The notes beneath the pieces were generated by a model. That model was not told the origin of the DNA and did not search any database. It saw nothing but the letters and a program-made list of their open reading frames with translations. A stretch of 64,000 nt of DNA from Phycisphaerales bacterium (GTDB taxonomy: Bacteria; Planctomycetota; Phycisphaerae; Tepidisphaerales; Tepidisphaeraceae). Below, in pieces: positions 56,876-59,487 of this stretch; positions within the stretch are counted from its first letter, which is position 1, and every line of letters begins with the position of its first letter. The translations under genes and the position numbers were made by a program. Where the stretch lies: the NCBI GenBank assembly GCA_020853095.1, contig JADYZN010000055.1, forward strand, positions 124,001-188,000, written 5' to 3'.

Positions 56876-57104
56876 TCATTGCGCAAGACGGACTTTGATC
56901 TTTGTCAGTGCCCGCACCCAGCGGGAGGTGCGTTTGTCCCGCGGGATGATCAGTTGCAGGGGTTGGGCTTTCTCTGGTAGCGGACCTCCGTCGAGCCGGT
57001 TCGCGACGAGGATGGGTTGCTCAGCGAATGCATCATCAACCTTGGCGATCGAGAGGATCACGCGGTAGTCGTCGCCAGCAGCGCGAGATGTAATGGAATT
57101 CGCA
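56876..57104 (-). pseudogene. Remnant of a sulfite-oxidase-family molybdopterin oxidoreductase (C-terminal end)
   Basis: About 75 codons read in one frame from directly behind the PEP-CTERM stop: GDDYRVILSIAKVDDAF, RLDGGPLPEKAQPLQL, IIPRDKRTSRWVRALTKI, the typical last beta-strands of the Oxidored_molyb fold. The catalytic Cys domain and molybdopterin site are missing. The frame has no start codon of its own that would give a whole domain, so it is a truncated relic left by replacement of the upstream part of the gene. Confidence 0.8.
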
Positions 57105-57956
57105 TCATTGCTTCTTTCGACGAAAGCCCAGGCCGATCAGTGCGATGCCGAGGGTCAGGATCGACGCCGGCTCCGGCACGGTGAAATTGACAACCGGGAA
57201 ATAATCCGCCGGGTTTGTCCGTGTCTGTGCGTACTCGTTGCTGTAGAAGGAAATAAACTGCTGAGGAGCGCCCGTTTCGGGGTAATTCAGATCGTCGGTG
57301 ATCTTGATCATCAGTCCGAAATCATGGATGTTGCCGCGCGTGTCGGGATTGTTGATCAACGTCGTCAGGTTCCATGACATTTTTGTTACGCCATCACTGA
57401 CAATGACCTCGCCCAGGACGGAATGGACGGCGTCGTAGTCGGCGGTCGTACTTCCCGCGCCCGGCGCGTTCCAGGGGTTCACACCGTCGTGGGTGAACCA
57501 GTCGGCCCCGATGGGATTGGCGGTCGTGTTTTGCGTGCCGGCAAACGTGCTGGTGGCCGTGCCTCCGGTTCCCTCGACGAACGAGCGTAACATCGGGTGA
57601 GCGGATACCGTCCGTGTAAAAGGATTGCCACTGTTCAGGTTGCGCACCCGGATCGAAACCACGGCCGATTCAACGTCTTGATTACCCAGGCTCGTCCAGA
57701 ACGAATCGGGCAGCTCGATCAGCGTTCTGACGATGGAGACACCAGGAAAGCTGGTGCTGCCGGGGCTGGTGACGACTTTCAACGCTGCGTTACCGCCGTA
57801 GTTCATATCCTGATTGCCCGGAATGAACGGATCCGGCTGGCCGGCGTAACTGTCGATGTACGTGCCATAAGTGATGACATCCGCCGGCGCAACGGCCGTC
57901 GTCGCCAGCGTCAATCCACACGCCATCATCCAGTTGCATACTGACAATCGATTCAT
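57105..57956 (-). CDS. Exported PEP-CTERM protein (DNRLRE-like beta domain)
   Basis: 283 residues from ATG 57956, with the GGGAGAGCATC leader also seen at the 8027 gene. Signal peptide ends near APA. The mature part starts YIDSYAGQPDPFIPGN and MNYGGNAALKVV with RTLIELPDSFWTSL, resembling the DNRLRE/CBM-like module of cell-surface proteins. C-terminal signal TVPEPASILTLGIALIG with basic tail RRKKQ. Follows the pseudopilin by 33 bases and ends against the molybdoenzyme remnant. Confidence 0.9.
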   Translation of the reverse strand: MNRLSVCNWMMACGLTLATTAVAPADVITYGTYIDSYAGQPDPFIPGNQDMNYGGNAALKVVTSPGSTSFPGVSIVRTLIELPDSFWTSLGNQDVESAVVSIRVRNLNSGNPFTRTVSAHPMLRSFVEGTGGTATSTFAGTQNTTANPIGADWFTHDGVNPWNAPGAGSTTADYDAVHSVLGEVIVSDGVTKMSWNLTTLINNPDTRGNIHDFGLMIKITDDLNYPETGAPQQFISFYSNEYAQTRTNPADYFPVVNFTVPEPASILTLGIALIGLGFRRKKQ

Positions 57957-57989: not shown

Positions 57990-58802
57990 TTAATAAGGCC
58001 ACCACATTCGATCCGTCACCGGCGGTTGCGCCGGGATCGGGTTATTCAGGTTCCAAATTGAATCCCGCCACTCAACATGCCCGTCGAGAAACACGATGTT
58101 CCCGCCCAGCTTGCCGCGCTGGTGCGGATGGCGGTCGCCGAAGTTCGCAGGCCCGTCGTTGGGGTACAATCCGTTCATGCAATCCACCGTGCCGGGAAAC
58201 CCCTGGCCGTTAAATGTTTTTCGCGGGTCGGTGGTCGTTTCGTAAACCAGGATCGTTTCCGAGGCGGACTTCGCTTTCGCCAGCCGCAGGAAACTTGGGT
58301 AAGGCGTCACGCCGGCCGGTACGAGAGCCGGTGTGTCGCGGTCCAGGAACATGTTCATCACGAAACTGTGATATCCCCAGTACGATGGGGCATAACCATA
58401 GTCGGCGTCGGGGTTGACCTGATCGGCCAGCGGACACTGGTAGATGTCTCCCGTCGGCTTCCGGCCGTTTTCAAAATCGATCCAGGAGCGTCTGTTCATC
58501 ACCGGCGGCAACACGTACAACCAGCTCGATTCCGCCTGAGGATTGCCGGCCCAGTAAACCCCGCGGAATGCATAGGGGTTGCGCGTGCGATCTCCGCTGT
58601 GCGGAATCGCGCCTTTGTGCCGCGCGGCGTAGAGATGAAACGCCTGCCCCCACTGGTGCAGGAGGGCCGCACACTGAAGCTGCCGCGCCTGCGCCCGTGC
58701 CCTGATGAGCGCCGGTAGAAGCAGACTGATCAGAACGGCGATCACGCCGATCACGATCAGCAGTTCAATCAAGGTAAAAGCCCGTGTGGGACGCATGGCC
58801 AT
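57990..58802 (-). CDS. Pseudopilin (prepilin-type N-terminal, DUF1559-like)
   Basis: 270 residues. N-terminal prepilin motif RAFTLIELLIVIGVIAVLI with peptidase cleavage before FTLIE, a 20-residue hydrophobic helix, then a globular part with PLADQVNPDADYGYAPSYWG and the ending FLDGHVEWRD typical of planctomycete type II pseudopilins. Start at ATG 58802 or 58796. Its promoter lies so close (TSS about 58804) that the mRNA would be leaderless. No other secretion genes nearby; paired with the PEP-CTERM gene. Confidence 0.92.
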   Translation of the reverse strand: MAMRPTRAFTLIELLIVIGVIAVLISLLLPALIRARAQARQLQCAALLHQWGQAFHLYAARHKGAIPHSGDRTRNPYAFRGVYWAGNPQAESSWLYVLPPVMNRRSWIDFENGRKPTGDIYQCPLADQVNPDADYGYAPSYWGYHSFVMNMFLDRDTPALVPAGVTPYPSFLRLAKAKSASETILVYETTTDPRKTFNGQGFPGTVDCMNGLYPNDGPANFGDRHPHQRGKLGGNIVFLDGHVEWRDSIWNLNNPIPAQPPVTDRMWWPY

Positions 58803-58810
58803 GGACGAGG

Positions 58811-58834
58811 CGTTATATTGTATTGTATATAACG
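58811..58834. promoter_or_regulatory. ModE-type operator (CGTTATAT-N8-ATATAACG)
   Basis: Perfect inverted repeat of eight bases with eight-base spacer, 24 bases in all. It matches the form of the E. coli modA operator (CGTTATAT... ...AACG, same total length). It lies about 60 bases downstream of a modE-type gene and covers the spacer and -10 of the promoter below. Confidence 0.85.
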
Positions 58835-58840
58835 AGTCAA
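58812..58840 (-). promoter_or_regulatory. Sigma-70 promoter overlapping the ModE operator
   Basis: On the - strand: TTGACT (58835-58840), a 17-base spacer, TATAAC (58812-58817), each five of six to consensus. Transcription would begin about 58804-58806, next to the pseudopilin start codon at 58802. Confidence 0.75.
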
Positions 58841-59262: not shown

Positions 59263-59487
59263 TTACTCGCCATCAGCGGCATCGGTCGAGACGATCACTT
59301 CGGTCGCCTTGATTACCGCGATGGCCTGTCTGCCTTTTTTGAGCTTCAGCCGCCGGGCGGATGAAGTGCTGATCAGGGAGACGATCTGATGTCCGCCGCC
59401 GATGTCGATGGTGATCTCGCTCATGACCGATCCGCCTTTGACGGAAACGACCTTGCCTTTGAATTGGTTGCGTGCGCTGAGTGCCAT
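59263..59487 (-). CDS. mop: Mop domain molybdate-binding protein
   Basis: 74 residues. Starts SARNQFKGKVVSVKGGSVMS, continues EITIDIGGGHQIVSLISTSS and LKKGRQAIAVIKATEVIVST: a complete single Mop/TOBE domain. Such proteins bind molybdate or tungstate as hexamers for storage or regulation. It is the first gene of the modE unit. Confidence 0.93.
   Translation of the reverse strand: MALSARNQFKGKVVSVKGGSVMSEITIDIGGGHQIVSLISTSSARRLKLKKGRQAIAVIKATEVIVSTDAADGE

Follow-up and report, generated by a model that had tools for sequence, protein, structure and literature searches.

A ModE-type operator overlaps the promoter of a gene pair for a pilin-like protein and a secreted PEP-CTERM protein in the genome of a Phycisphaerales bacterium. 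The same switch stands before the same pilin in several families of the class, often with transporter genes nearby. This pattern suggests a surface system, so far undescribed, that would operate at low molybdenum. ModE is known to control molybdate transport, cofactor synthesis and molybdoenzymes. The window referred to throughout is the whole stretch of 64,000 nucleotides that was analyzed, in which the minus-strand gene order is mop, modE, box, pilin and PEP-CTERM (Table 1).

Table 1. Positions of the operator, promoter elements and genes of the pilin locus in the window
Feature	Position	Strand	Basis
ModE-type operator, CGTTATAT-N8-ATATAACG	58811..58834	.	Arm match and identity to E. coli modA
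-35 hexamer, TTGACT	58835..58840	-	Direct read; TTGACC in G001, TTGACG in G044, TTGATC in G021
-10 hexamer, TATAAC, within the operator	58812..58817	-	Direct read; TATAAT in G001 and G044, TATAAC in G021
Mop, single TOBE/molbindin domain	59263..59487	-	PF03459 66.9 bits; TIGR00638 81.1 bits
Short ModE, DNA-binding domain only, 120 aa	58897..59259	-	TIGR00637; solved ModE chains 2ijl, 1b9m, 1o7l
Pilin-like protein	57990..58802	-	N-methylation signal, DUF1559-like, C-terminal DGHVEW; orthologous family A2
Secreted PEP-CTERM surface protein	57105..57956	-	PF07589; homologue is the second operon gene in G001
Deletion pseudogene of a small secreted PF00174 (molybdopterin-domain) protein	56876..57105	-	DNA alignment with G001; tblastn 64% identity

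The operator and promoter of the pilin operon

Read directly from the window, the operator is CGTTATATTGTATTGTATATAACG, composed of CGTTATAT-TGTATTGT-ATATAACG, and its arms are complementary at 8/8 positions. It is identical at 19/24 positions to the modA operator of E. coli K-12 as fetched, CGTTATATTGTCGCCTACATAACG, which bears out a preliminary description of this DNA as holding a near-perfect 24-base ModE operator with the size and arms of the E. coli site. The palindrome also fits the definition of a ModE operator as either ATCGCTATATA-N6-TATATAACGAT, given in the accessible part of a study of the Geobacter regulon (PMC2700814), or the E. coli modA site. Within the window it is the only full-arm match, with 0 mismatches (0.39 sites would be expected by chance when as many as 3 mismatches are allowed), and a genome search found it to be the only full-arm copy in 3.6 Mb. 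The remaining core matches in the genome are at chance level (40, against 55 in the control).

TTGACT lies just before the box on the minus strand and the box terminates in TATAACG, so that the two hexamers are 17 nt apart and the operator spans the spacer and the -10, as originally described. The pilin ATG starts 9 nt past TATAAC, and on this spacing a leaderless pilin message, previously proposed as probable, is plausible. A sigma-70 scan did not list the promoter because the scan requires T at the last -10 position. In G001, a genome of the same genus, the box reads CGTTATATACTCATGTGTATAATG and is combined with TTGACC-17-TATAAT in the same geometry; the pilin there starts with GTG, also 9 nt from the -10. 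Between the two genomes the arms (largely), the hexamers and the start distance have been kept while the center of the box has drifted, the pattern expected of a functional operator-promoter with a leaderless start.

Genes of the window locus

The preliminary description placed mop and modE-type genes next to the operator, and profile searches agree. The mop gene, which encodes a single Mop domain on its own, sits 3 nt upstream of modE, and the ModE chain matches TIGR00637 with 76.1 bits (E 1.7e-21), below the cut-off of 98.5. Its ModE-type winged helix-turn-helix domain is present (match to 2ijl, E 3e-15), and the C-terminal pair of Mop domains typical of E. coli ModE is absent from the 120-aa chain. 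The genes behind the promoter are, as originally stated, a pseudopilin gene followed by a PEP-CTERM gene. The first product has an N-terminal methylation/cleavage motif and a hydrophobic helix (PF07963, 25.1 bits, above cut-off), on which we assign it as pilin-like, a putative type IV pilin or pseudopilin. In a PDB profile search solved pilins align over its N-terminal ~60 residues only and no solved structure is related by sequence to its C-terminal domain; single-sequence structure prediction is confident for the N-terminal helix only (pLDDT 40). The second product carries a C-terminal PEP sorting signal (PF07589, 28.7 bits, above cut-off), and PEP-CTERM-type proteins occur at the corresponding place in G044, G010 and G161. 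In G161 (L072 3836-4672) this gene follows mop-modE-box directly, without a pilin.

The third gene is intact in G001, which shares the whole operon arrangement of the window, and encodes there a small secreted PF00174 protein of 174 aa (32.1 bits, cut-off 24). In the window a start and a signal-peptide remnant are followed by the C-terminal part out of frame, and DNA alignment with G001 reveals an internal deletion of ~0.3 kb. The window operon holds no transporter gene; such genes are found in related pilin operons of other families.

A pilin family linked to ModE

We searched 397 genomes of the class Phycisphaerae with a profile, A2, built from modE-linked pilins. ModE is present in 39/397 genomes, and among these a pilin recurs downstream of modE. 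The A2 profile scores at least 276 bits in 23/397 genomes and 113 bits at best elsewhere, a clean gap that marks a distinct orthologous family and not random DUF1559 paralogues; the family is essentially single-copy. It occurs in 17/39 genomes with ModE and in six of the 358 without (Fisher 1e-14, genomes treated as independent), and the absence of ModE was upheld by a second, diverse ModE profile. In a phylum-wide sample of 392 genomes, some of them of the same class, the window genome alone gave an A2 match, indicating that the family is uncommon.

The upstream 450 bp of the pilin operons were then searched for the box, at a background of 1.2e-5 per position. A ModE box was found at all 19 of the examined pilin operons of genomes with ModE, which represent eight families (f1, f3, f8, f10, f11, f14, f19 and f20; kinship not corrected) and include two loci, in G044 and G010, that bear a related second pilin type. 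Compared with CGNTAT-N12-ATANCG, the box shows one mismatch or none at 17/19 loci; at the remaining two it sits in the corresponding position and shows 2 mismatches. No box was found at the five pilin loci examined in ModE-less genomes. Across these relatives the site is kept with ModE and lost without it, paralleling the accessible part of PMC2700814, which describes ModE sites fading in G. metallireducens after the loss of ModE. The box lies 8-108 nt ahead of the pilin start or, in f20, ahead of the modE-pilin operon, and it also precedes pilins whose genome carries modE at a distance or on a different contig (G255, G311, G215, G357 and G378). Its linkage to the pilin in eight families, including cases with modE elsewhere, indicates that the linkage is old.

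Partner genes in the pilin operons

Operon walking and tblastn were used to read the neighboring genes, which took four forms. The window genome and G001 (form a) combine the pilin with the PEP-CTERM and PF00174 proteins. In G044 and G010 (form b) a related pilin type, about 29% identical to the window pilin in G044, is followed by a PEP-CTERM-type protein and a TupA/ModA-like binding protein, which is TupA-like in G044 and similar in G010; TupA itself gave no match over its cut-off. In f20, f10 and f8 (form c) the pilin precedes one or more secreted OB-like proteins, a small membrane protein and a PF03266 NTPase, and in f20 the operon often continues with a MobA-type fusion, MoeA and MoaA. 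In f14 and f19 (form d) the pilin and secreted OB-like protein(s) are followed by a PF00174 protein and an ECF transporter, whose parts in G327 are an S component (PF09819), a double ATPase (A-A') and a T component (PF02361) and in G357 S and A-A'. PF00174 proteins occur in the operons of G001, G321 and G357. Some of the OB-like secreted partners weakly resemble extracellular nucleases, and we know of no molybdenum-binding function for the PEP-CTERM and other secreted partners.

Complete or near-complete ECF transporters were seen at L140, L141 and L132 (f14, f19), with PF09819, the double ATPase and PF02361 in L141. The operons begin with a ModE box, the pilin and secreted OB-like protein(s), with a PF00174 protein in L140 and L132, and their transporters are candidate importers of molybdenum, tungsten or Mo-pterin. 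A conserved membrane protein of ~210 aa, with no significant match in Pfam or NCBIfam, is encoded next to the NTPase of PF03266 type, downstream of the pilin and the secreted OB-like protein(s), at L045, L047, L076, L083, L090, L094, L128, L129 and L134.

Molybdate and tungstate transporter genes

WtpA is present in 9/39 genomes with ModE, and 0/9 of these carry the A2 pilin (p=0.002, genomes treated as independent). Flanked by modE and the MobA fusion, the pilin cassette of f20 takes the exact place of wtpABC in G294 and G221, and G082 and G333, members of one genus, differ in having WtpA or the pilin. ModA is absent or below cut-off in 13/17 genomes with both ModE and the pilin, the exceptions being G000 (the window genome), G001, G378 and, weakly, G129; tandem ModA-like matches of 35-77 bits (G044, G010, G129, G139 and G365) were not counted as true ModA.

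The modA gene of G004 has a ModE box, and in G021 the order is RRM gene, mop, modE, box and modAB, with the same promoter geometry as in the window. The presence of the box at modA in these two genomes indicates that this type of box is used for molybdenum uptake in relatives. When the locus was compared with related Phycisphaerae, as the preliminary description had proposed, mod genes behind an unrelated promoter were not encountered at the homologous position, and those of G021 stand behind the same kind of box. At the syntenic site in the window genome and G001, modAB lies beside the same RRM gene without mop-modE and without a box, and this difference from G021 indicates that some shuffling of mop-modE has occurred. 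Depending on the lineage, the mop-modE-box unit is joined either to modAB or to the pilin. The window-genome modAB (G000:C61, L050 4383-5909) has a TATAAC 9 nt before its ATG and no ModE box, and its message may be leaderless too.

Discussion

The site, its position over the promoter, its conservation and its loss together with ModE strongly suggest that ModE represses the window promoter. We infer that, when molybdate is plentiful, ModE would bind the operator, which overlies the spacer and the -10, and would block RNA polymerase, with molybdenum sensing for the short ModE perhaps supplied by the adjacent Mop. Shortage of molybdenum would lead to synthesis of the pilin and the PEP-CTERM surface protein, probably translated from a leaderless message. 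The pilin would be a member of an old Phycisphaerae family, regularly targeted by ModE, whose partner genes vary by lineage, and the pilin cassette would most likely serve acquisition of molybdate, tungstate or molybdenum compounds at the cell surface. Such a role is, we infer from gene content, the best common denominator of the neighboring genes and the exclusion of WtpABC. That the operon is repressed by ModE and expressed under molybdenum shortage, and that its pilin and surface protein serve acquisition of molybdenum or tungsten, is the reading we favor, with moderate confidence. In the window genome itself the presence of a separate, boxless modAB and the broken third gene suggest that the uptake role may be partial or reduced. 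More tentatively, the pilin, the secreted partner and a lineage-specific membrane component could together form an undescribed Phycisphaerae uptake system for molybdenum, tungsten or molybdenum compounds, switched on through ModE at low molybdenum and replacing WtpABC or ModABC in many genomes, in which the pilin-based part would capture the metal; we consider this extension less likely than not.

The main rival to the acquisition role is a molybdenum-dependent surface or secretion function without uptake, in which the ModE-controlled operon would remodel the surface or secretion (attachment, biofilm, export of PF00174 or other proteins) when molybdenum-dependent respiration is unavailable. 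In its favor, the operon encodes a pilin together with PEP-CTERM proteins or other secreted ones, an OB-like partner weakly resembles extracellular nucleases and the window genome has its own modAB. However, the ECF and TupA-like binding-protein genes within these operons in other families, the cofactor-synthesis genes within the same operons and the mutual exclusion of pilin and WtpA argue for acquisition, and we regard a function without uptake as unlikely, though deserving of serious weight. It is improbable that the box is a relic or the site of another regulator with no present effect on the pilin. The pseudogene in third place could signal an operon in decay, but the arms, -35, -10 and start distance have been retained between the window and G001 despite the drifted center, and boxes are missing where ModE is absent.

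In calling the operator one that "now" drives the pilin gene, the preliminary description implied a recent swap, by which a rearrangement would have redirected a mod promoter to an unrelated pilin/PEP-CTERM pair. Such a capture was raised by the mop-modE-box-modAB order behind the RRM gene in G021, and it would accord with the modAB of the window genome and G001, which adjoins the same RRM gene but lacks mop-modE-box. It was dropped once the linkage of box and pilin recurred in other families: the wide spread of the same pilin family under ModE boxes, also with modE elsewhere, speaks against a recent event, and G001 has the entire arrangement too, so that capture is very improbable. Least probable of all is that ModE activates the operon, as E. 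coli ModE can do at some operons, or that the palindrome, which could fold into an 8-bp RNA hairpin (predicted -5.3 kcal/mol), acts as such at the end of the modE message; the operator covers the spacer and -10 in a repression-like placement, its likeness to the modA operator extends beyond the pairing, and the terminator reading was dropped since the hairpin is A-U rich and a scan found no terminator.

Operator and regulator both belong to a known type and share with the E. coli ModE-modA system the 24-bp site, the arm sequence and the placement of a box at a promoter near the modE gene. Unlike the E. coli system, the window box would control a pilin and a surface protein and not modABC, the ModE consists of the DNA-binding domain only with a separate Mop, and the operator lies on the spacer and -10. 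With planctomycete DUF1559/H-X9-DG pilin-like proteins the A2 pilins share the N-methylation signal and a similar C-terminal DG motif, but they form a distinct, essentially single-copy family separated from the paralogues by a score gap and tied to ModE. In relatives, WtpABC, ModABC, TupABC and ECF transporters are found at this locus or in this operon, following modE genes or ModE boxes, whereas the window operon is without a transporter gene and the uptake role of its pilin cassette is a putative one. ModE sites have been predicted in Geobacter ahead of genes beyond molybdate transport, and the accessible part of that report names transport systems, nucleases, a CoA-transferase and a tRNA among the predicted members, with a pilin unmentioned there (PMC2700814). 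In the literature searched, which covers subscription papers incompletely, we found no report of a ModE-controlled pilin or of ModE targeting a conserved pilin family. Such a family would link surface structures to trace-metal supply and, among the many planctomycete pilin-like proteins that lack an explanation, would provide one group with a first role that can be tested. It may also show how Phycisphaerae without recognizable ModABC, WtpABC or TupABC get molybdenum.

Other features of the loci

In f14, f19, f3 and one f20 locus (L074, L140, L141, L075, L131, L130, L132 and L094), 6-9 consecutive T residues stand ~5-15 nt ahead of the ModE box; they may be a terminator remnant or part of the promoter. 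A third pilin type occurs in the molybdenum loci of G395, G344 and G110; at L087 5363-6739, L092 and L048 the genes after a third-type pilin encode a TiaS-like 'DTDN' protein and an unassigned membrane protein.
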